A stretch of 64,000 nucleotides of DNA from Sphingorhabdus sp. SMR4y. Its GTDB lineage: Bacteria > Pseudomonadota > Alphaproteobacteria > Sphingomonadales > Sphingomonadaceae. The notes under the pieces were generated by a model, which saw only the letters and a program-made list of their open reading frames with translations, was not told the origin of the DNA and searched no databases. Below are positions 28,744 to 42,832 of this stretch, piece by piece. The number at the start of each line of letters is the position of its first letter. The first letter of the stretch is position 1. The DNA is taken from the NCBI RefSeq assembly GCF_002218195.1, contig NZ_CP022336.1, positions 992,001 to 1,056,000 on the forward strand, read 5' to 3'. The position numbers were made by a program, and so were the translations under genes.

Positions 28744-30297
28744 CTAGCGCAGCCCCGCCATCGCGTCAGCCAATTTATCGACCGGACCCAAATCGGCAAG
28801 AAATGCGTTGATCGCAGCCTGGGCGGATTGTTCGCGCTTCGTTTCGGAAGAAATCAGGACTGCCACGGCCTGCTGAGGGCCGCCGAACAGCCTGCCCTTC
28901 AATGTCTCGAGTTTCACTGCCGAGCCACTGCCGGTAAGTTTCCCGCCGATACGGTAAAAGCTGACGACATCGCGGACCACCGGCCCGGGTGCGATCAGTT
29001 CAACCGCGGAGGCCCCCGCCGGTGCTTCGAGAGCCCGATTGCGAGACCACTCGGTCTCGGGAACAAGCGCCCCCTGTCCATAGCCGACAAGCTCCCGGCC
29101 CTCTTCCTGACGGTCATAAACCGCGACAGACAGATCGACCTCCATGCCGGTCATGCTATTTCGGTAGCGCCCGAGCAACTGATGGCTGGCACCGTCAAAA
29201 CGCGGCTTCCAGGGATACAGCGGTTGATAATCGACTTTCTCCCAGCCGGCGACGTCCGGCAGCGCAATCCGGTCTGGCACAACCGATTCCTGAGCCGCCA
29301 CGATTGATATCCAGAGTAGCGGCGTCAGGATGATTGCCGCCATCGCCGCCATCACTTTCGTCGGCTTTTGCGCGCCGGCTGGTACAGGCTGATTGCGGGC
29401 CAGAGCATCGCCATCAATCATCGGGTCGTCGATCTTCCGATCGAAAAAGGGCCAGCCAATCGCCATCAACAAAATCAGGACGAAGGCAAAAAAGAACCAG
29501 CCGTAGAAAATATGGTCAAAACCAATGGCAAAATCGAGCGACGTATGATGCGCAATATAAATGGTCCCGAATGCGCGGATACCATTGGCAATTATGGGCA
29601 GCAGCACGGCGACGATCATGAACAGGATCCGGCGGTTCCAGCTCTGGAAACACACATTGCTGACCAGCGCACCATAAGCGAACATGGCGATCAGGAACTT
29701 GATGCCCGAGCAGGCCTCTGCGACCTCGAAATAGCCGGTCGGCGTGGAAATGAATATCCCGTCGATAAAGGCCGGAATATCCGCCCAGCCGAGAAATATC
29801 ATCGACAGTCTTGCGGTGACCATCTGCAAGAACGGCACGAACTCCTCGCCGAAAGGAACGAGGAAAAAGCTGAAGGCGATCGGAAATACGAGTCCGCGCG
29901 TAACAGTCGGACCGAGCATTGTGACCACAGCCCCCTGCAGCATCATCAACAGTCCGAGGTGCCGCGCGAAGGAAACGCCCGCGGCCTCTCCCATCAACCA
30001 TCCGGCAGCAGCGACGCCGCTCAGCAAAAGACCGGGCCACCAGATTTGCGGAGCAAGTTTGGCCAGTTCTTCCCGCCGCTGCTGCACCAGCCAAAACAGG
30101 ATCGGCACAATCAGCAGACAGTGATTATAGGTGGAAACAGACCACCATGTCCGGACCATGTCGGCGGCGTCACGCCAGAAAACAGCCAATATGGCCAGCA
30201 TGGCGAATGCCAGCAACTGCAGATGCGTGGTCCAAAGCGAGGCAGGCACGGCGGGAAGCTGTCTGCTGTCCAAGCGATTGGCGGTCGCACTCGTCAT
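28744..30297 (-). CDS. xrtA: Exosortase A fused to an EpsI domain
   Basis: 517 aa from ATG 30297, which overlaps the upstream stop (ATGA). About eight membrane helices span residues 25-285. The transpeptidase-like triad is intact: Cys196 in AEACSGIKFL, Arg241 in NGIRAFGT and His262 in GFDHIFYGW. The C-terminal part (about 320-517) is the EpsI-type soluble domain, a fusion typical of XrtA. It is inferred to process PEP-CTERM proteins and attach them to exopolysaccharide or envelope. No PEP-CTERM substrate gene was seen in this window. Confidence 0.95.
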   Translation of the reverse strand: MTSATANRLDSRQLPAVPASLWTTHLQLLAFAMLAILAVFWRDAADMVRTWWSVSTYNHCLLIVPILFWLVQQRREELAKLAPQIWWPGLLLSGVAAAGWLMGEAAGVSFARHLGLLMMLQGAVVTMLGPTVTRGLVFPIAFSFFLVPFGEEFVPFLQMVTARLSMIFLGWADIPAFIDGIFISTPTGYFEVAEACSGIKFLIAMFAYGALVSNVCFQSWNRRILFMIVAVLLPIIANGIRAFGTIYIAHHTSLDFAIGFDHIFYGWFFFAFVLILLMAIGWPFFDRKIDDPMIDGDALARNQPVPAGAQKPTKVMAAMAAIILTPLLWISIVAAQESVVPDRIALPDVAGWEKVDYQPLYPWKPRFDGASHQLLGRYRNSMTGMEVDLSVAVYDRQEEGRELVGYGQGALVPETEWSRNRALEAPAGASAVELIAPGPVVRDVVSFYRIGGKLTGSGSAVKLETLKGRLFGGPQQAVAVLISSETKREQSAQAAINAFLADLGPVDKLADAMAGLR

Positions 30298-31517
30298 GCC
30301 GCCACCCCGGCCGCCGCGATGTTGGGCAGACCGCACAGTGCCGGCAGACCGGCAAGCTGCGTCTGCCAGGAATATCGCGCATGAATGAGCTGTTCCGCCC
30401 GCTCTCCCAGGCGCCTGGCCTCATCGGGATTCTGCAGCAACCCACATAGCAGTTGCGCTTCTTCGTTCACGGAATCGGCGACGAGGAAATGCTCGCCATT
30501 GACCGCGTCAATGCCTTCCGCTGCACAGCCGGATGCCACCACCGGTCTGGCCATCGCCATCGCCTCGAGAACCTTGTTCTGGATACCCCGGGCGATCCGC
30601 AGCGGTGCTACCACCACATCGGCAGCGACAATCCAGCTGCGAATATCGTCGACCGCACCAATTACAATGGTGCCGTTGGTCCCGTCAAGCTGTCTGACCT
30701 TGTCGGTCGGCGCGCGTCCCGCAATGGCAAAGCGCGCATCCGGAAAACGTGCGAGAATGGCCGGCATGACCTGTGTGCTGAAACTCTGCACCGCCTGCAC
30801 ATTCGGCTGATAGTCCATCTGGCCGGTGAAAAGGATCATCGGTCCGCCATGGCCGAGGCTTTCCGGATGCACGTCCGGAGCGCCATAAAATTCCAGATCA
30901 ATGCCGTTGCCAACCGCTTCCACGCGGTCGCCGGTCAGACCGGAACGCTGTCGGAACAGGGCCGCCTCCGCTTCACTGACAAACAGGGCATGATCGGCCC
31001 GCTCGGCAATCGCCTTCTCGAAATCCCTCAGCATCCGCCCTTCCCGACGGTTGATCCAGGCCATCGGCCCCGAACCCTCCGCGGCGTAGCTTTCGAATTT
31101 CGCACTATCGACATCACCGAAGTCCATTACGACGCGACCGCCGAAGTCGGCTGGAATATATTGTGCCATCTGGCCTGAAAACACGAAGATACAATCAATC
31201 GGGCGGGTGGCGATCACCTGTGCGACATAGGCACGGATGTCGGCGCTGTCGAAACAGGTTAGCGACACCGGTTTGCCGGTCAGGATGGCTTCCACTCCAC
31301 CGGCCCATTGCGACTTGGTCCGCAGCACCACTTCGCAGGAGGCCAGTTCCTCTTTGCGCTCCCAGCCGGCCTGTCTTTCGGCTTCATCCTCGGCAAAACA
31401 GGCGACATGTACTGCCGCGCAATCCATAAGCTTTTGCAGGAAATGGTGCGAGCGGATCTTGTCGCCCCGGTTGGGCGGCCACGGCACGCGATGCGCCAGA
31501 AACAATATTTCAGCCAT
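30294..31517 (-). CDS. XrtA-associated sugar transferase (GT4-like, TIGR03087 type)
   Basis: 407 aa. It begins AEILFLAHRVPWPPNRGDKIRS, the distinctive N-terminus of the PEP-CTERM/EpsH1-associated glycosyltransferase, and has the GT-B donor-site segments MILFTGQMDYQPNVQAV, FAIAGRAPTDKV and VVVAPLRIARGIQNKVLEAMA. It likely adds a sugar to the lipid-linked repeat of the exopolysaccharide. ATG 31517 overlaps the upstream TGA by one base; the longer open frame upstream has no support. Confidence 0.93.
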   Translation of the reverse strand: MAEILFLAHRVPWPPNRGDKIRSHHFLQKLMDCAAVHVACFAEDEAERQAGWERKEELASCEVVLRTKSQWAGGVEAILTGKPVSLTCFDSADIRAYVAQVIATRPIDCIFVFSGQMAQYIPADFGGRVVMDFGDVDSAKFESYAAEGSGPMAWINRREGRMLRDFEKAIAERADHALFVSEAEAALFRQRSGLTGDRVEAVGNGIDLEFYGAPDVHPESLGHGGPMILFTGQMDYQPNVQAVQSFSTQVMPAILARFPDARFAIAGRAPTDKVRQLDGTNGTIVIGAVDDIRSWIVAADVVVAPLRIARGIQNKVLEAMAMARPVVASGCAAEGIDAVNGEHFLVADSVNEEAQLLCGLLQNPDEARRLGERAEQLIHARYSWQTQLAGLPALCGLPNIAAAGVAA

Positions 31518-32593
31518 CAGCCCAGGCCTTTGGCGATGACCGGTCCGACCCGATTGGCAACCCACAGGGGCAACCGCTGCCAAAGCGCGACCTGCAACCG
31601 GTATTTGGGGCTCATCGGATTGACATCGCGAGCCTCTTCGCCATCGGCCGTACGCGTCGCGTAAGAGAGCGGCTGCGGTTCAAAGCCCCAGTTCTTTTTG
31701 AAGGCGAAAGCCCCTGTGCCATATTTGGAGCGACCGAAATCAAAGAAATTACAGCCCCGTTCACGCGCATGGTTCATCAGCTCATAATACATGATCTCAT
31801 TGGCCCGGACACGCCGCGCATCCCATGTTCCGCCACCCCAATAGGGCATCACCGTGCCGTGGTGGTAAAGGCTGAGAACACTGGCCACTGGCACATTGTC
31901 GCTGATCACGGTCAGGATATCAGCGTCCTTGCCAAACGCATCGAGCACGGCGTCGAACAACGCCTGCGGGAAAACGGGGGTTCCCAGATTGCGAACGCTT
32001 TCCGCATAGACGGCATAATGGTCGTCCCGGTCCTGACGCGTCGTGCCGATGCGCACGGTCAGACCATTTTTCAGGCCCTTGCGGACCTCAGCACGCTGTT
32101 TGCGCGGAATGGCCAGCAACTGGCTTTCCGCGTCGGCTGCCAGTTCCGTGACAAATCCGGCATAGACATCCTGCTTGCGTTGCCAGGGTCCGTCTGGGAC
32201 AGGCCCGCCGCGCAATTCCACTGAAGGAAAGCTGGCGCGCTCGGCAAACTGCCACGCGGCATCGGCAAGCAACTGGACGGCCTGATCATTGTCCGAGAGA
32301 ATACCTCCACCCACCGCAAATCCTGAGGAGGTCAGCGCGCGGCCGAACAGGGCGGAGTGGATCAGGGTCAGCGGGAGAATCCCCTGCAGCATCCCTTCTC
32401 CATCTTCGGCGAGAATATATCGCCAGTCATGTCCACAGGCCTTGCTGACCGCCAATAGCCAGGCCGGTCGGTGAAACGGCGTGCCGTCCGGAGCAGCATC
32501 GACAAAGGCGTCGATCCGCGCCAGTTCATTGGCATCTGCCTGTTCCAGCACGCGAACCGACAAGGACGTTGGCTTGAAGGCCATATTCATCAC
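31517..32593 (-). CDS. FemAB-family XrtA-associated protein
   Basis: 358 aa, a double GNAT fold of the FemAB/lipid II aminoacyltransferase type. Landmarks are FHRPAWLLAVSKACGHDW near residue 40, ELRGGPVPDGPW, and the C-terminal YYELMNHARERGCNFFDFGRSK, characteristic of the TIGR03019 group. It might add an amino acid to a glycan or precursor; substrate unknown. Overlaps the deacetylase stop by four bases (ATGA). Confidence 0.92.
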   Translation of the reverse strand: MMNMAFKPTSLSVRVLEQADANELARIDAFVDAAPDGTPFHRPAWLLAVSKACGHDWRYILAEDGEGMLQGILPLTLIHSALFGRALTSSGFAVGGGILSDNDQAVQLLADAAWQFAERASFPSVELRGGPVPDGPWQRKQDVYAGFVTELAADAESQLLAIPRKQRAEVRKGLKNGLTVRIGTTRQDRDDHYAVYAESVRNLGTPVFPQALFDAVLDAFGKDADILTVISDNVPVASVLSLYHHGTVMPYWGGGTWDARRVRANEIMYYELMNHARERGCNFFDFGRSKYGTGAFAFKKNWGFEPQPLSYATRTADGEEARDVNPMSPKYRLQVALWQRLPLWVANRVGPVIAKGLG

Positions 32594-33312
32594 ATCAGCC
32601 CCGCTTCCAGTGCTGCCAGTTCATCGACCCTGCCCCAGGGAAAATCCCGTCCGGCCCGCAGCAGCTTGCCACGCATCGCCCTCAAGTTGGTATAATGGCG
32701 CAGCTTGGATCGAAGCGGGGCATTGGCAACGCGCGGCTGATCGGGGTCAATCTCCCATGGATGGAAGTAAAAAATCGCCCCATGGCCGTCATCGCGCTGC
32801 ATTTTCCTGATCGATCGTTCATATAATGCATAAGGCAGAAGCCGGAAAAACCCGCCACCGCCAGCTGCAAAGCGACGGTTGCCAAGCTGAACCGTGGTCA
32901 CCGGCAATTCAATGAGATCGGACTGATCGACCGGCTTCCAGGCAAAGCGGGGCGATTCCGTCCAGCCATAATGGTCATGGGAAATCGGCGCGACGCTGGA
33001 GGAATAGATATAGCCCTCTTCCGCCAGTATCTCGTGCGCCCAGGGGGTCCGCTGGTCGATCGAGAAGCTGGGAGCGCGATAGCCGATGACCTGCTGCCCC
33101 GAATGGTCCTCGAGAAGTTTGCGACTGCGGTCCAGATCGGCCCGAAATTGCGCGGGAGTAAGGGTGAATACACGAGCATGATCATAGCCGTGACTGGCAA
33201 TTTCGTGCCCGGCATCGGCGATCTCCTGCATCAACGCGGGATAGCGTTCGGCAACCCAGCCGAGAATGAAGAATGTCGCCTTGATGCCCGCTTCGTCGAA
33301 CAGCGCCAGCAC
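32590..33312 (-). CDS. XrtA-associated polysaccharide deacetylase, 5'-truncated remnant
   Basis: 240 aa from GTG 33312, shorter than the roughly 280 aa family norm. NodB-domain parts present: FFILGWVAERYP, the metal His pair in GHEIASHGYDH, GYRAPSFSI and IFYFHPWEID. Codons upstream in the same frame still read FETVIDRADWDQLEHRVERN, which is native family sequence, until a TGA at 33385-33387 formed at a join with foreign sequence. The lost piece holds the N-terminal motif that supplies the catalytic Asp (VDVED type in this family). No ribosome site precedes the GTG, so expression is doubtful and activity is probably gone. Confidence 0.85.
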   Translation of the reverse strand: MLALFDEAGIKATFFILGWVAERYPALMQEIADAGHEIASHGYDHARVFTLTPAQFRADLDRSRKLLEDHSGQQVIGYRAPSFSIDQRTPWAHEILAEEGYIYSSSVAPISHDHYGWTESPRFAWKPVDQSDLIELPVTTVQLGNRRFAAGGGGFFRLLPYALYERSIRKMQRDDGHGAIFYFHPWEIDPDQPRVANAPLRSKLRHYTNLRAMRGKLLRAGRDFPWGRVDELAALEAGLM

Positions 33313-33817
33313 CTCGTGGCTGTTGCGCTCTACCCGATGCTCGAGCTGATCCCAGTCGGCGCGATCGATGACTGTCTCGAAGGGTCACATTGTCGATATT
33401 GCCCACGGTGTTGCTAGGCGCTTCACCGCGCAGATCGATCCGGCTTCGGGTCGCAATCCCGCCGGCTTCCAATGCCAGCAGATTGGGAACAACCTGTACA
33501 CTGCCGCGGGCCAGGCCGGTGATGATATCGTCGTCTCCCAGATTGTCTTCATAATAGAACCTGCGCTCATAACGGACGTTCAACTGGGCTTCTGCACCGC
33601 GCGTCTGCAGCGACGTATCGACACCCGCAGCGACCGACGTATAGGTCAACACATCGCTGCCATCTTTCAGATCGGCGACCAATATCTGCTGGATTTCAAG
33701 ATAAGGAGCCACATCGGCTTGTCGTTCGCGCGCTTCTACGGCGGGCGCAGCCAGTCCCAGAAGCGGGAGGATAGCGGCTCCATATTTCAGGAAATTTCCG
33801 TTTTTAAGCGCGGTCAT
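33182..33817 (-). pseudogene. XrtA-associated outer-membrane protein (TIGR03016 type), truncated by deletion
   Basis: The frame starts at ATG 33817 (GGAGAG six bases upstream, three bases after the kinase stop) with a signal peptide ending AVEARE and continues for about 144 codons of barrel-like sequence (YERRFYYEDN, SVQVVPNLLALEAGG, EAPSNTVGNIDNVT). That matches the start of the outer-membrane protein normally encoded here, which is around 500 aa. From about 33383 on, the frame reads out-of-frame deacetylase DNA and yields an Arg-rich tail of about 66 residues to a stop at 33182. The product cannot form the full barrel. Confidence 0.85.
33376..33390 (-). other. Deletion junction in the exosortase locus
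   Basis: Within these bases the minus strand changes from outer-membrane-protein coding (codons for DNV-T, 33383-33391) to deacetylase coding in another frame (codons for FET-V, from 33381 down). No inverted repeat, direct repeat or mobile-element end is visible at the join. Confidence 0.8.
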
Positions 33818-37150: not shown

Positions 37151-38386
37151 CTAGTCGACCAACAGTTCCCGGGCCGGCCCCTGCCCCAAGAAATTGGCCG
37201 GGCTTGCCGAAGCGCCGTAAGCGCCTGCGCAGAATATTGCGACGATGTCACCGACGCTCGCCCTGGGCATGGCGGCGTTGTCGCTCAAACGATCTAGCGG
37301 CGTGCAGAGGCAGCCGACTATCGAAACCGTTTCAGCCGGCTCTTCTTCGAACCGGTTGGCGATCGCAGCCGGATAGTTGCGGCGCACGACCGTCCCGAAA
37401 TTGCCGCTGGCCGCAAGCTGATGATGCAAACCGCCATCGGTCACCAGAAAGGTCTGGCCCTGGCTTTGCTTGCGGTCGACGATCCGGGTCAGATACACGC
37501 CCGCTTCGCCCACCAGATAGCGGCCCAGTTCAATCGCGAATTGCGTCGATGTCAAAATATCCGGTAGTTGTGCGAACTGGTCCGACAGGGCTCTGCCGAC
37601 CCTGATGATATCCAACTGTTCGTCACCCGGAAAATAGGGGATTCCGAAACCACCGCCGAGATTGACATGGGCCGGAGACGCGCCGATTTCAGTTGCCAGA
37701 CGAGCCGCCAGTTCCAGTGTCTGCGCCTGTGTCTCGATTATGGCATCCGCGCTCAATGCCTGCGATCCGGCAAAAATATGGAAACCGCGCCAGTCGGCTC
37801 CGGCGTCCAGAATTGTCTGCACGGTAGGCGCCACCAGTTCGATATCCATCCCGAACGGCTTCGCACCACCGCCCATCTTCATGCCCGACCCCTTGAGGTC
37901 GAAATCCGGATTGACCCGGATCGCCAGCCGCGGCTGCCTGCCGAGCGCGCCTCCGGTTTTCAGCGCCCGATCGCATTCCCCGGGCGATTCGATGTTAATT
38001 GTGACACCGGCCCGGATCGCCTGCTCGATTTCCTCGTCCCGCTTGCCGGGTCCGGCAAAACTGATGTGGTCCGGAGCCGCTCCGGCTTCCAGCGCCATGT
38101 GCAATTCGCCACCCGACGCTATGTCGATACCATCGGCCAGACCAACCATGTGGCGGAGCAGCGGCGGGAAGGGATTGGCCTTCATTGCATAATGCAGATC
38201 AAGACCATCCGGCATCGCAGCCCGCAGTTGCGCCATGCGATCGTCGAGCCTGTTTTTCGCATAGACAAACAGGGGCGAACCATTTTCCGCGACCAGCGCG
38301 CTGGCTGTCTGTCCGCCAAGGGCCAGTTCGCCATCAATGGCATGAAACCCGGTCGGGATCGGTCCGGTAGCTTTCGTCTTGATCAT
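37151..38386 (-). CDS. PLP-dependent decarboxylase, exosortase A-associated
   Basis: 411 aa, fold type III (alanine racemase/LysA-like). PLP Lys in LHYAMKANPFPPLLRHM (about residue 69), ASGGEL, HIFAGSQ, NLGGGFGIPYF (PLP phosphate site) and the C-terminal dimer motif VGCLCTPLD with the catalytic Cys. It resembles ornithine/diaminopimelate decarboxylases, but the TIGR03099 group occurs in exosortase A loci with the neighbouring acyl-CoA ligase; substrate unknown. ATGA overlap with the ligase. Confidence 0.92.
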   Translation of the reverse strand: MIKTKATGPIPTGFHAIDGELALGGQTASALVAENGSPLFVYAKNRLDDRMAQLRAAMPDGLDLHYAMKANPFPPLLRHMVGLADGIDIASGGELHMALEAGAAPDHISFAGPGKRDEEIEQAIRAGVTINIESPGECDRALKTGGALGRQPRLAIRVNPDFDLKGSGMKMGGGAKPFGMDIELVAPTVQTILDAGADWRGFHIFAGSQALSADAIIETQAQTLELAARLATEIGASPAHVNLGGGFGIPYFPGDEQLDIIRVGRALSDQFAQLPDILTSTQFAIELGRYLVGEAGVYLTRIVDRKQSQGQTFLVTDGGLHHQLAASGNFGTVVRRNYPAAIANRFEEEPAETVSIVGCLCTPLDRLSDNAAMPRASVGDIVAIFCAGAYGASASPANFLGQGPARELLVD

Positions 38387-39924
38387 TCGATATCCATGCT
38401 GGCCAATGCGTTGCGGTCGAGCTTTCCATTGGGGTTCTTGGGAAATTCGGAAAGCAGGATGATATCCCGGGGGTGCATAAAATTCGGTAAATTCTGTTTC
38501 AGATATTTTGCCAGCTGCTCTGCGACCTCCGGATTGCCCTCGCCAGCTTCAACCGACCGGACGAACAAACGGATAGCATGGCCCAGTCGCTCGTCCGGGA
38601 TGCCCAGAGCGACGGCTTCCGCCACGATACCCGATTCGACCGCTATTTCTTCAATCTCTGTCGGACTGATCCGGTTGCCGGAGCTTTTGATCATCGCGTC
38701 ATCCCGACCGACAAAATACAGCAGACCATCACCGCCGCGCTTCACCGTATCACCCGAGAATACCGCTGTTCCGCCATATCGTGATGCTGCGGGAGCGGCC
38801 TTGAACCGCTGCGCGGTCCGTTCAGGATCATTCCAGTAGCCCTGTGCCACCAGTGGTCCGCAATGGACCAGTTCACCCGCCTGGTCCGGGCCGGCAACGT
38901 CACCTGCCGCGTCGACCACCAGGATCTCGGCAAAGGGAATCGCGGTGCCCATACTGGTCGGATTGCCATCGATCAGAGCAGGATCAAGATAGGTCGACCG
39001 GAAAGCCTCGGTCAGACCGTACATCGCATAAATATCGGTCGCGGAACCGAATATTTCCCGCAACTGCTTGACCAGCGTCGGAGTCAGCGCGCCACCGCTA
39101 TTGGTCAGGCGCCGCATCGAGGCTACCGCGTCTTCCGGCCATTCCTGCTCTACCAGTTGCACCCATAGCGGAGGCACTGCGGCCAGAGTGGTGATCCGTT
39201 CGCGGGCACATGCCTTCATGACGTCACGCGGTGTCAGATAATCCAGCGGCACGGCACAGCCCCCAGCCGACCAGGTCGACAGCAGCTGATTCTGGCCATA
39301 ATCGAAACTGAGCGGCAAAACGCATATCGTGCGATCATCGGCCGACAATTTCAGATATTCGGCGACACTGAGCGCCCCCAGCGTCAGATTGGCGTGGCTG
39401 AGCATCACCCCTTTCGGACGCCCCGTCGAGCCGCTGGTATACAGAATCGCAGCCAGATCATTTGTATCGGTTGAATTCGCGCTGGGCTCCATCGGCACGG
39501 CTATCGACTCCAGCGCGCGCTCCACGGCCTTGTCCTCGAACAGACGACAATGGCTCGCGTCATGCCCCTCCAGCGTCTTCAGGCGTCCTGCGTTGCTGAT
39601 CAGCATCTTGGTCCCGCTATCTGCGGCTATGTGCAAAACCTGCGCCTGTTTGAGCAAGGGATTGACCGGCACATGGACAAGCCCGGCGCGGGCCGCTGCC
39701 AACGGCATGAGGCACGCCAGTTCGGTCTTGGACAGCCATGTTGCAACCCTGTCACCTTTGGTTAGCCCCTGCCCCTGCAGCCATGCCGCCAGCAAGCCGA
39801 TACGATGATTTAACATCTTGTAGCTAAGAGACCCTGAACGCGTCACGAGCGCGCAGGCATCCGGATCCTTGCCTATCGCCAGATGGTCAAGCGGGAAAGC
39901 GGCGATTTCGGGTGTGATGTTCAA
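38383..39924 (-). CDS. Acyl-CoA ligase (AMP-forming), exosortase A-associated
   Basis: 513 aa of the ANL superfamily. The P-loop LYTSGSTGRPKGVM (about 168-181), motif YGLTEAFRST, and the C-terminal hinge with FVGRDDAMIKSSGNRISPTE and catalytic Lys in NPNGKLDRNAL are present. It probably activates an acyl or amino acid group for the acyl carrier protein encoded at 41.0 kb. Group TIGR03098. Only 30 bases separate its start from that of the divergent GNAT gene. Confidence 0.93.
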   Translation of the reverse strand: MNITPEIAAFPLDHLAIGKDPDACALVTRSGSLSYKMLNHRIGLLAAWLQGQGLTKGDRVATWLSKTELACLMPLAAARAGLVHVPVNPLLKQAQVLHIAADSGTKMLISNAGRLKTLEGHDASHCRLFEDKAVERALESIAVPMEPSANSTDTNDLAAILYTSGSTGRPKGVMLSHANLTLGALSVAEYLKLSADDRTICVLPLSFDYGQNQLLSTWSAGGCAVPLDYLTPRDVMKACARERITTLAAVPPLWVQLVEQEWPEDAVASMRRLTNSGGALTPTLVKQLREIFGSATDIYAMYGLTEAFRSTYLDPALIDGNPTSMGTAIPFAEILVVDAAGDVAGPDQAGELVHCGPLVAQGYWNDPERTAQRFKAAPAASRYGGTAVFSGDTVKRGGDGLLYFVGRDDAMIKSSGNRISPTEIEEIAVESGIVAEAVALGIPDERLGHAIRLFVRSVEAGEGNPEVAEQLAKYLKQNLPNFMHPRDIILLSEFPKNPNGKLDRNALASMDIE

Positions 39925-39954
39925 TTTTTGACCTATGGGAAAAAGAGCAGATTT

Positions 39955-40995
39955 GTGACAGATACGACCTTAGCCATGACCAGTGAATATCATAGCAATT
40001 TTCAATCCGTGCAAGCCATTGCCGGAGAAAAACTCGGCCGAACGGTCCAGAAGTCCCTGTTCGACCGGATCGAATGGCTGAAACCATTGCACGAGCTGTG
40101 CCTCCCGGACAAATCGCCATTAATCGTCCACGCTACCGAAGGTGAAGCGGAAGCGTGGATGTTCCTGATGAAAACCGGTCTTGGCCGCCATGCCGCCCTG
40201 GCCAACTGGTACAATTTCACCTTTCGCCCGATATTTCTCGGCGATTATGATGAAGTGACCAAATTGGCACTGCTCGCAAAATTGGCAAAGCAGCTGAAAT
40301 CCTGTTCCCATCATATTGAAATCACACCCGTTCCCGACGAGGACTCGGCTGCCAGCCTGACCGAACGCGCGTTCGAGCAAGCCGGCTGGGTCGTGTTCCG
40401 CTCGAAGGCGGATGACAATCATATATTGAACGTCAAGGGACGCACCTTCGATCAATATTGGGCCGGTCGGCCGGGGCAATTGCGCAACACGGTGCGGCGA
40501 AAGGCGAAGAAAAACCTGGTGTCGGTCCGCATTGAAACGCAATATTCCGACGAGGATTGGGACGACTATGTCTCGGTTTACGAGCGCAGCTGGAAACCCG
40601 AGGAAGGCAATCCTGATTTTCTGAGAAATCTGGCCCGGCACGAAGCGGCGGCCGGCTGCATGCGCCTTGGCCTCGCCTATATCGACGGAGAACCGGTCGC
40701 GGCCCAGTTCTGGACCGTGGAAAATGGCGAAGCGTTGATCCACAAGCTGGCCCATGTCGAAGACGCGACAAAAACTTCGCCCGGAACCTTGCTGTCTGTA
40801 GCCATGTTCCAGCATGCCATCGATGTCGACCATGTCGATCTGATCGACTTTGGCACCGGCAACGACGGCTACAAGCGGGAGTGGATGGAAGATGTCCGGG
40901 ATCGCTATCGGCTGGAATTCTACTGGCCCAATAACCCCATGTCCTGGCTACCAATTTTGCGGCACTATGCGTCGGGCCTTGCCGGAAAGCGCTGA
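39955..40995 (+). CDS. GNAT/FemAB-like acyltransferase (BioF2-type domain)
   Basis: 346 aa from GTG 39955; ATG 39976 is an alternative, and the open frame runs back into the divergent ligase gene. The C-terminal half is a GNAT fold: LRNTVRRKAKKNLVSVRI, YERSWKPEEGNPDF, GEPVAAQFW and LIDFGTGNDGYKREWM. It likely transfers an amino acid or acetyl group to a glycan or lipid in the exosortase pathway. It heads the plus-strand arm with an ACP and two hydrolases. Because only 30 bases lie between the divergent starts, its promoter probably lies inside the ligase coding region. Confidence 0.8.
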   Translation: MTDTTLAMTSEYHSNFQSVQAIAGEKLGRTVQKSLFDRIEWLKPLHELCLPDKSPLIVHATEGEAEAWMFLMKTGLGRHAALANWYNFTFRPIFLGDYDEVTKLALLAKLAKQLKSCSHHIEITPVPDEDSAASLTERAFEQAGWVVFRSKADDNHILNVKGRTFDQYWAGRPGQLRNTVRRKAKKNLVSVRIETQYSDEDWDDYVSVYERSWKPEEGNPDFLRNLARHEAAAGCMRLGLAYIDGEPVAAQFWTVENGEALIHKLAHVEDATKTSPGTLLSVAMFQHAIDVDHVDLIDFGTGNDGYKREWMEDVRDRYRLEFYWPNNPMSWLPILRHYASGLAGKR

Positions 40996-41037
40996 CCGCT
41001 TTAGGGAAGCGCCGTTATCCGAGATTCGGGGGTATTG

Positions 41038-41310
41038 ATGCAAGATAAGGTCGAGTTGACACCGGAAGCTGCCGTGCGTGCAGTGATGCGGGATATTTTG
41101 GGACTGAGCGAGGAGCAAGTCGCTGAATTTACCGCGGAAACGGAGCTTTTTGGCGCTCTTCCCGAACTCGACAGCATGGCCGTTGCGGGCTTGCTGACCG
41201 AACTGGAGGACCGGCTGGACATCATGATCGACGATGATGAAGTCGACGGTGAACTGTTCGAGACTTTCGGCAATCTGGTCGCCTTCGCCGAGATGAAAGT
41301 TACCGAGTGA
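41038..41310 (+). CDS. Acyl carrier protein, exosortase A-associated
   Basis: 90 aa. The phosphopantetheine attachment site is Ser46 in LPELDSMAVAGLL (DSM instead of the usual DSL of fatty-acid ACP). It is acidic (IMIDDDEVDGELF). With the AMP ligase and decarboxylase across the divergent border it probably forms a dedicated acyl-loading unit. ATG 41038 has CGGGGG upstream; a TTG three bases earlier is possible. GTGA overlap with the next gene. Confidence 0.9.
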   Translation: MQDKVELTPEAAVRAVMRDILGLSEEQVAEFTAETELFGALPELDSMAVAGLLTELEDRLDIMIDDDEVDGELFETFGNLVAFAEMKVTE

Positions 41311-42014
41311 AGCCTCTCCCCGCATTCGCCTCCTACGAATTTGCGGATCGCAAAGAATTATGTTTGTCTCTGGCATCGCCGTCGGGCCGAAACGTCATGC
41401 TGGTCCCGCCCCTTTTCGACGAAATGAACCGGATGCGAAAGATGCTGGTGGATGTCATGCAGGCGCTGCATGCCCTTGATATCAGCAGCTTTTTACCCGA
41501 CCTGCCGGGTACCAATGAAAGCCTGCTTCCGCTGGAACAAGCAACGCTGGCCGGCTGGCAACAAGCCGTCGAGGCCTGCGCGCAACAGCACCAGATAACG
41601 CATATTGCCTCGTTCCGGGCTGGCGTCTTGACGGTCGCGGAAATGCCGGCCGCCAGCCACTGGATGCTGAGCCCGGTCAAAGGCGCAGCGATATTGCGGA
41701 CCATGATGCGCACCAGAGTGGCCGCCGACCGGGAAGCCGGCCTGACCACCAGCCTTTCCGGACTGACTGAACAGGCCGGTGCGGGACCGATCGAACTTGC
41801 TGGTAATATCATCGGCTCCGACCTGTTCTCGCAGTTGAACGCCGCCGGAATACCGGCACTGCAAAACCAGCGGATCGTCCGCCTCGCTTCGGATAACAAA
41901 CCGGGCGACGTCCAGATCGATGGTTCGGCTTTATGGCTCCGCGCCGAACCCGACGATGACCCGGCGATGTCATCTGCGATCGCGCAGGATATCGCTGCGT
42001 GGATGGATAAATGA
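41307..42014 (+). CDS. Exosortase A-associated hydrolase 2-like protein, lacking a serine elbow
   Basis: 235 aa, GTG start overlapping the ACP stop. Alpha/beta hydrolase-like strands are seen (MLVPPLFDEMNRMRKML, LDISSFLPDLPGTNES), matching TIGR03101-type proteins. Where GxSxG is expected the sequence is HIASFRAGVLTV, so no canonical nucleophile sits at the elbow. It may be non-catalytic or thioesterase-like. ATGA overlap with the next gene. Confidence 0.8.
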   Translation: MKPLPAFASYEFADRKELCLSLASPSGRNVMLVPPLFDEMNRMRKMLVDVMQALHALDISSFLPDLPGTNESLLPLEQATLAGWQQAVEACAQQHQITHIASFRAGVLTVAEMPAASHWMLSPVKGAAILRTMMRTRVAADREAGLTTSLSGLTEQAGAGPIELAGNIIGSDLFSQLNAAGIPALQNQRIVRLASDNKPGDVQIDGSALWLRAEPDDDPAMSSAIAQDIAAWMDK

Positions 42015-42832
42015 CGCGGAATTTCCACCGCATAGGCTGTGAAAGCGACATGCTCGCAGCGACTTTGGACGCCGGGTCCGGTCCAACCGCCCTGCTCATT
42101 GTCAGCGGCGGAAACGAAATCCGCTCGGGTGCCCATCGCGGCATGGCCCGATTGGCGCAGCATATAGCGCAGCAGGGATTTCCCGTGTTGCGTTACGACC
42201 GGCGCGGCATCGGCGACAGCACCGGCGATAACAAAGGCTTTCTGGAAAGCGGCGCAGACATCAAGGCTGCTGTCGCATTTCTGCGTCAGGAGTATCCCCG
42301 GCTGCAGTCGGTCATTGCCTTCGGCAATTGCGATGCCGCTACCGCGCTGGCCCTGTTTGGCCCCGACGCCGGCATCGACGGCTATATGCTGGCCAATCCC
42401 TGGGTGATTGAAACGAGCGAGGAGCCGGCCGGCGATGAACCGACCATGTCGGCAGCGGCCATCCGGTCCCGCTACTGGGACCGAATCAGGAATCCCCGCA
42501 CGTTGCTCGACCTGCTTTCGGGAAAGATCGATTTCGCGAAATTGCTGAAAGGGATCAAACGGGCGTCCCGGACCGAAGAAACCGGCGGGCTGGCGTTGCG
42601 GCTGAGCGATGCTCTTGCTGGCACCGACAAGGATGTCCGTATCCTGCTGGCAAAGCGCGATACTACGGCCCGTGCGTTTCTCGCCGCCTGGAACAGCACG
42701 GATTTTGCGCAAGCGCGGGGGAATTCCGCGATCAGCCTCCAGACCCTCGACAGCGCGTCGCACAGTTTCGCAGATGAAGCGGCCAAAACCTGGCTCACCG
42801 AAAATTTGCTGGATGCGTTGCGCGCCGCCTGA
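42011..42832 (+). CDS. Exosortase A-associated hydrolase 1 (Cys-elbow alpha/beta hydrolase)
   Basis: 273 aa. Opening FHRIGCESDMLAA, then IVSGGNEIRSGAHRGMARLA and YDRRGIGDSTGDN. The nucleophile elbow reads AFGNCDAATAL, Cys in place of Ser, as expected for TIGR03100 proteins. DSASHSF near the end supplies the His. It could hydrolyse a thioester from the ACP. It ends the plus-strand arm, abutting trxB without a gap. Confidence 0.85.
   Translation: MTRNFHRIGCESDMLAATLDAGSGPTALLIVSGGNEIRSGAHRGMARLAQHIAQQGFPVLRYDRRGIGDSTGDNKGFLESGADIKAAVAFLRQEYPRLQSVIAFGNCDAATALALFGPDAGIDGYMLANPWVIETSEEPAGDEPTMSAAAIRSRYWDRIRNPRTLLDLLSGKIDFAKLLKGIKRASRTEETGGLALRLSDALAGTDKDVRILLAKRDTTARAFLAAWNSTDFAQARGNSAISLQTLDSASHSFADEAAKTWLTENLLDALRAA

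Follow-up and report, generated by a model that had tools for sequence, protein, structure and literature searches.

Introduction

In the vicenistatin pathway, the adenylating enzyme VinN (structures 3wv4/3wv5 and 3wvn) binds 3-methylaspartate, with D230 holding the amino group and K330 and R331 in a shortened loop, according to the accessible text of PMC11253843. Loading comes first and decarboxylation after, the substrate of the decarboxylase VinO being 3-methylaspartyl-VinL, as described in the available part of PMC11284099. The decarboxylase BtrK acts on a carrier-bound substrate, BtrI-S-glutamate (PMC7857480, as excerpted).

In a different context, the T9SS, proteins are amide-bonded to an amino-acid-modified sugar, for which VimA sets the amino acid and WbpS makes a uronamide (PMC7468200, accessible part). 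The partner to which exosortases join proteins is given in the available text of two papers as an "unidentified compound" (PMC7468200) and as an unknown periplasmic nucleophile (PMC1569441), and the authors of the former speculate, in the same accessible part, that the compound is an amino-acid-modified sugar. The families TIGR03100 and TIGR03101 ("hydrolase 1/2, exosortase A system-associated") are hypothetical equivalogs in NCBIfam, with no reaction given, and no function for them was found in the exosortase literature, which we covered mostly outside subscription papers and in part as excerpts.

Here we analyzed a stretch of 64,000 nucleotides (G000:C1:992001-1056000, hereafter the window) from the 3.48 Mb genome of Sphingorhabdus sp. 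SMR4y, in which the exosortase A (XrtA) locus occupies 26.8-42.8 kb. The protein families were named earlier; the function proposed for them here is new. We hypothesized that the ligase, ACP and decarboxylase of this locus build an aminoacyl-ACP, and that hydrolase 1, aided by hydrolase 2, passes the acyl group on, a reading to which we give about an even chance.

Results

Gene content of the locus

The locus belongs to the XrtA system by virtue of an exosortase A gene scoring above the TIGR03109 cut-off (Table 1). Other XrtA-system genes encode a glycosyltransferase (TIGR03087), a deacetylase (TIGR03006), chain-length and export proteins, and a tyrosine kinase slightly below its cut-off. In the opposite direction to the ligase, four genes form an apparent operon, in the order FemAB/GNAT-like gene, ACP, hydrolase 2-like gene and hydrolase 1, the last three ORFs overlapping by 4 bases at each junction. 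A thioredoxin reductase gene follows hydrolase 1 on the opposite strand.

Table 1. Features of the XrtA locus, in window coordinates, with the supporting matches.
Feature	Position	Strand	Evidence
XrtA amidotransferase TIGR03108	26839..28734	-	961.8 bits
Exosortase A (XrtA), EpsI-type domain at C-terminus	28744..30336	-	TIGR03109 338.5 bits (cut-off 208), TIGR02914 100.8 bits
FemAB family XrtA-associated protein TIGR03019	31517..32593	-	379 bits
PLP decarboxylase TIGR03099, BtrK-like	37151..38386	-	572.3 bits, cut-off 478.45
AMP-forming ligase TIGR03098	38383..39924	-	626 bits, cut-off 592.35
FemAB/GNAT-like N-acyltransferase, candidate final transferase	39883..40995	+	PF13480 83 bits
Stand-alone ACP, attachment motif DSM	41035..41310	+	PF00550 26.5 bits
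Hydrolase 2-like, Arg104 at nucleophile elbow	41307..42014	+	conservation, predicted fold, profile-profile alignment
Hydrolase 1 TIGR03100, Cys107-Asp217-His251	42011..42832	+	213.3 bits, cut-off 168.45

The locus holds two FemAB-like N-acyltransferases, of which only the first (31517-32593) matches TIGR03019; the second (39883-40995) had no NCBIfam match and no PDB match. The PEP-CTERM profile TIGR02595 gave three matches over its cut-off genome-wide, few possible sorting targets for a locus of this size, and it also exceeded its cut-off in 2 of 14 control genomes. On the minus strand at 32590-33817, the XrtA deacetylase ORF corresponds to TIGR03006 only from position 39 onward, and an overlapping ORF upstream of it has no family match. 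The deacetylase frame meets a stop ahead of what appears to be further deacetylase sequence. This region may have arisen by a deletion between two adjacent genes in this genome.

Pairing of the two hydrolases

To describe the pairing, 71 loci with both hydrolases were compared, counted apart from the window and a natural fusion. The two genes lay on the same strand in all 71 and were direct neighbors in 69, the exceptions being L117, with a 163-base gap, and L081, with about 6.4 kb from stop to stop. The ACP had been described as dedicated to the pair, and this held: it was found in 68 of these loci, just upstream in 66, and a pattern scan recovered the DSM motif in 67 of 72 relatives.

At E up to 1e-20, 14 of 398 Pseudomonadota genomes had a TIGR03101 match and 31 a TIGR03100 match, and every genome with the former also carried the latter. 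The 17 genomes with TIGR03100 only comprise 16 from the window's own family and G174; in those 16, hydrolase 2 is apparently too divergent for the profile, as it is in the window. In a first pass, a nearby hydrolase 2 went undetected at 10 of 71 hydrolase 1 loci. At least two of these were misses, as a whole-genome search found a neighboring TIGR03101 in G130 and G113. That search covered 13 genomes with hydrolase 1 (10 without a detected partner nearby, one with its partner 6.4 kb away and two with an adjacent partner), and found TIGR03101 in 10; the three without a match have assemblies that are 83-95% complete.

In L116:7878-9719, hydrolase 2 and hydrolase 1 are fused into a single protein of 613 residues, although a sequencing frameshift may instead account for it. 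No second fusion was found in 118 genomes searched, 10 of which had a match. The fusion gene adjoins a FemAB-like gene.

More distant Arg/Cys pairs occur at L117:6584-8435, beside NRPS genes (elbows GMRLG and GLCSG), and at L118:7046-8723, beside NRPS-PKS genes (GARLG and GICSG). The corresponding genomes, G474 and G389, had no XrtA match at E 1e-40. A third distant pair, L119:7962-9600, has genes similar to those for the XrtA export and chain-length proteins about 2 kb away.

Co-occurrence with XrtA

XrtA exceeded its cut-off in 35 of the 398 genomes. Hydrolase 1 and the decarboxylase occurred together in 27 of these, and neither occurred in the other 8 (G410, G479, G161, G506, G513, G153, G091 and G514). 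This co-occurrence without exception agrees with the original prediction that the hydrolases share a pathway with the ligase and decarboxylase. All 26 genomes with an over-cut-off TIGR03100 fall inside the 35, and the decarboxylase was found in those 26 and in one more, G271, which carries the fusion and in which the hydrolase 1 part scored 166 against the cut-off of 168.45. Weak TIGR03100 matches without an XrtA match were seen in four genomes (G174, G474, G389 and G357). The ligase was undetected at E 1e-90 in 7 of the 8 genomes lacking the other two enzymes, and G506 gave a sub-cut-off ligase match of 420.8 bits.

By a simple estimate that ignores the kinship of the genomes, the 27/8 split has odds of 4e-8 and the nesting within XrtA odds of 2e-33. 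Linkage alone does not explain the co-occurrence, since in G458 and G247 some of the module genes are widely separated in the genome. The ligase and decarboxylase search covered the 35 over-cut-off genomes among 62 with an XrtA match, the remaining 27 matches falling below the cut-off, and the hydrolase 2 check covered 17 of the 27 module-bearing genomes. The module is not a general rule of XrtA systems, since it is missing in 8 of 35.

Hydrolase 1 is a probable Cys-type enzyme

Hydrolase 1 passed the curated TIGR03100 cut-off, as did proteins from 87 of 147 related genomes, the window's own included, in a profile search. Conservation was assessed in 83 hydrolase 1 sequences (the window, 70 loci of related genomes and 12 more distant loci) and 73 hydrolase 2 sequences (the window, 60 loci of related genomes and the same number, 12, of more distant loci). 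These alignments set aside 20 short loci repeating longer ones and three own-genome loci, and 16 lower-scoring genomes over the TIGR03100 cut-off fall outside both.

The original prediction described two ORFs whose elbows lack the standard Ser nucleophile, HIASFRAGV and GNCDA, and both were found as claimed, with Arg104 and Cys107, respectively. The family alignments extend this to Arg in 73 of 73 hydrolase 2 and Cys in 83 of 83 hydrolase 1. In place of the GxSxG Ser, hydrolase 1 thus carries Cys107, accompanied by His251 (83/83) and Asp217 (80/83); the latter position was without alignment in L117-L119, the three most distant loci. Judged from its sequence, hydrolase 1 is a Cys-Asp-His triad enzyme, the triad being placed from secondary structure, not coordinates.

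The structure model of hydrolase 1 had a pLDDT of 88.1 and was weak at residues 39-41 and 138-144. The best 50 fold matches spanned Z 23.7 to 19.4; closest were lipases, feruloyl esterases and thioesterases, DcsB and curacin TE being among the thioesterases listed. DcsB and another of the fold matches, GrgF, are Cys-type. SyrC, CmaE and CysB were absent from the best 50 matches listed in each structure search, which says nothing against a relationship. With lipases, esterases and thioesterases as the nearest folds, hydrolysis by hydrolase 1 is as plausible as transfer. Nor does Cys107 prove transfer, since the Ser-type thioesterase LgnA both hydrolyses and transfers (PMC8748450, accessible part).

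The fold matches, the catalytic triad and the position of the FemAB-like gene directly upstream of the ACP would also suit an editing thioesterase, in which hydrolase 1 clears wrong or stalled acyl groups from the ACP, hydrolase 2 is regulatory, and the FemAB-like protein alone performs the transfer. We consider this unlikely, while granting it an appreciable share of the probability: the nucleophile is Cys, not Ser, throughout the hydrolase 1 family, and hydrolase 1 is tied to the decarboxylase as closely as a core enzyme would be. To our knowledge, a constant dead twin would also be unusual for an editing thioesterase.

Hydrolase 2 is probably a pseudohydrolase

The hydrolase 2-like protein scored 38.2 bits on TIGR03101, far below the cut-off of 202.75, and in the whole-genome search another hydrolase (L001, 43.5 bits) outscored it (37 bits), so it was alignment and gene order, and not the score, that decided its assignment. 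It shares conserved residues and gene order with above-cut-off TIGR03101 members, and the 73 sequences with Arg104 include seven above-cut-off TIGR03101 genomes. From the motif, rather than by alignment, the Arg elbow was also identified in six further TIGR03101 loci (from 11, of which three repeat counted loci and two are fragments from one genome without a readable elbow). The seven new genomes from the fusion search had, by motif, Arg in hydrolase 2 and Cys in hydrolase 1 in every case. Constancy throughout both alignments (Arg in all 73 hydrolase 2 and Cys in all 83 hydrolase 1 sequences) shows that the elbows are not a matter of chance.

Comparison of structure models and alignments, the check proposed together with the original prediction, bore out the position of the Arg. 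The AlphaFold2 model of hydrolase 2 (pLDDT 96.0) has an alpha/beta-hydrolase fold, best matched by 7wwh (Z 19.3, rmsd 2.9, 207 residues aligned), and Arg104 directly follows strand 99-103. A profile-profile alignment shows the two families to be related (hhalign probability 96.2, E 2.4e-9) and places Arg104 against Cys107.

Hydrolase 2 has five residues conserved in 73 of 73 sequences (Arg104, Asp65, Gly68, Gly166 and Trp210), followed by Glu39 (72/73) and by Asn41, Arg44 and Arg135 (70/73 each). It has no conserved His, the best column holding 28 His of 73. A conserved Ser nucleophile elsewhere in the protein, the finding named as refuting the original prediction, did not emerge for hydrolase 2. 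Only two columns had Ser, Cys or Thr in more than 60 of 73 sequences: position 69, with Thr in 45 and Cys in 16, and position 72, with Ser in 71. Thr69 and Ser72 lie in the D65-S72 segment past an earlier strand, and the hydrolase 1 residue opposite Ser72 is Ser70, not one of the elbow. Lacking both an elbow nucleophile and a His, hydrolase 2 is most likely non-catalytic, and probably a pseudohydrolase partner of hydrolase 1. Both proteins are atypical, as had been proposed, but they are not a pair of like hydrolases: one has a Cys-Asp-His triad and the other neither nucleophile nor His.

The invariant Arg104, Asp65 and Trp210 and the nearly invariant Glu39 speak for charged residues being retained and against decay, as would be expected if both proteins were enzymes and hydrolase 2 acted by unusual chemistry with Arg104 and Glu39. 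We regard this as improbable, given the lack of a conserved His and of Ser, Cys or Asp at the elbow, and given that TIGR03101 never occurred without TIGR03100 in the 14 of 398 genomes that have it.

Ligase and decarboxylase

On TIGR01733, a model of amino acid adenylation, the ligase scored 254.3 bits, and on a long-chain fatty acid ligase model 276.9 bits. Over its whole length, its best PDB matches were the gramicidin synthase LgrA (278 bits across two A domains, 145.6 for the best domain), another NRPS chain (207.3 bits) and VinN (175.8 bits). With the pocket region alone, VinN was the top PDB match (35.1 bits), followed by a fatty acid CoA ligase (30.5 bits), which has an Asp aligned with Asp208 and no Arg at 309.

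VinN D230, F231, S299, K330 and R331 (chain number minus 16) align with Asp208, Tyr209, Ser276, Phe308 and Arg309 of the ligase. D230, S299 and R331 are thus matched, and the K330-R331 loop aligns without a gap; F231 and K330 are replaced by Tyr209 and Phe308. Among 62 ligases, Arg309 and Phe308 were each conserved in 62, and Asp208 in all 61 with a letter at that position. Ser276 was more variable (47 Ser, 14 Thr, 1 Leu), as was Tyr209 (49 Tyr, 12 Ala). As Phe308 takes the place of VinN Lys330 and 12 of the 62 ligases have Ala instead of Tyr209, the pocket points only loosely to the substrate.

The decarboxylase was nearer to BtrK (232.7 bits) than to the best diaminopimelate decarboxylase in the PDB (160 bits), and the genome's own LysA, used as a control, gave the reverse (120.1 against 416 bits). 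A Cys-Thr-Pro motif common to BtrK and the decarboxylase was present in 63 of 63 decarboxylases. A role as the lysine enzyme was rejected, since a second gene in the genome encodes LysA (436.9 bits).

Exosortase-linked N-acyl amino acid synthases were reportedly described by Craig et al. in 2011. A fatty acid role, with the ligase attaching a long-chain acid to the ACP on the way to N-acyl amino acids, would be in keeping with the exosortase link cited in the accessible part of PMC4897644 and with the second-ranking fatty acid CoA ligase and its Asp at 208. It is nevertheless very unlikely, because Arg309 (VinN R331) is universal among the ligases and missing from that enzyme, the ligase also scores on TIGR01733, albeit higher on the fatty acid model, and no role would be left for a BtrK-like PLP decarboxylase.

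Discussion

In the preferred reading, the ligase would activate Glu or an Asp-like acidic amino acid and load it by its side-chain carboxyl onto the stand-alone ACP. The BtrK-like decarboxylase would then remove the alpha-carboxyl from the ACP-bound residue to give a short beta- or omega-aminoacyl-ACP, that is, beta-alanyl-ACP from Asp or 4-aminobutyryl-ACP from Glu. The homology steps behind this part are fairly firm. The original prediction had left the product unknown, and the VinN-like pocket and BtrK-like decarboxylase narrow it to such a putative short aminoacyl-ACP.

For the later steps, we infer that hydrolase 1 transfers rather than hydrolyses, taking the aminoacyl group on Cys107 as an acyl-enzyme and passing it to an acceptor or a second carrier. 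Hydrolase 2 would be its bound, non-catalytic twin, whose near-invariant charged residues Glu39, Arg44, Arg104 and Arg135 may bind either the carrier arm or the acceptor. For the acceptor, an XrtA glycan sugar is probable, and the FemAB-like protein encoded at 39883-40995 may act as a further transferase.

A bolder and improbable extension is that the module makes the amine to which XrtA joins proteins, in the form of an aminoacyl group on the linking sugar, and that the Arg/Cys pair is a general acyltransferase that also works with NRPSs. If so, the free primary amine of the sugar would be the nucleophile for PEP-CTERM proteins, only in module-bearing XrtA systems, and the Arg-elbow and Cys-elbow proteins would be the two subunits of that acyltransferase, acting on carrier proteins.

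The combination of a Cys enzyme with a family-wide Arg-elbow pseudoenzyme is an unusual pairing. The ligase and decarboxylase reading makes the neighborhood a testable pathway and offers a clue to the product of the sorting system. Should that product be attached to the XrtA glycan, it would be relevant to the question of what the exosortase joins proteins to.

Comparison with known systems

By score, hydrolase 1 is a member of TIGR03100. The window hydrolase 2 resembles TIGR03101 proteins in gene position, fold and conserved residues, but falls far under the family cut-off, and an Arg elbow is ill-suited to the name "hydrolase".

The VinN-VinL-VinO system has, in the available parts of its descriptions, the same arrangement of an adenylating enzyme with an Asp/Ser/Arg pocket, a stand-alone ACP and a PLP decarboxylase acting after loading. 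It differs in being a polyketide starter pathway, in having Lys330 where the window ligase has Phe, and in that these parts mention no Cys-hydrolase/pseudohydrolase pair; VinO is likened by description, not by sequence.

In the butirosin system, BtrK is the nearest solved structure to the decarboxylase, and its substrate is carrier-bound in the excerpted account. The loading enzyme there, BtrJ, is of another class, whereas that of the window is an AMP ligase.

The aminoacyltransferases SyrC, CmaE and CysB use a Cys nucleophile, and we know of no pseudohydrolase partner for them. They are likened here by description, as they shuttle aminoacyl groups between carrier proteins in NRPS pathways (PMC7966384, accessible part).

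The linking-sugar pathway of the T9SS shares two components with the locus, since VimA matches TIGR03019 and WbpS relates to TIGR03108 (PMC7468200, as far as accessible). In that same part, the pathway (VimA, VimE and WbpS) appears without a module of ligase, ACP, decarboxylase and hydrolases. What the module would add to this analogy is a possible source of the amino group in the XrtA system.
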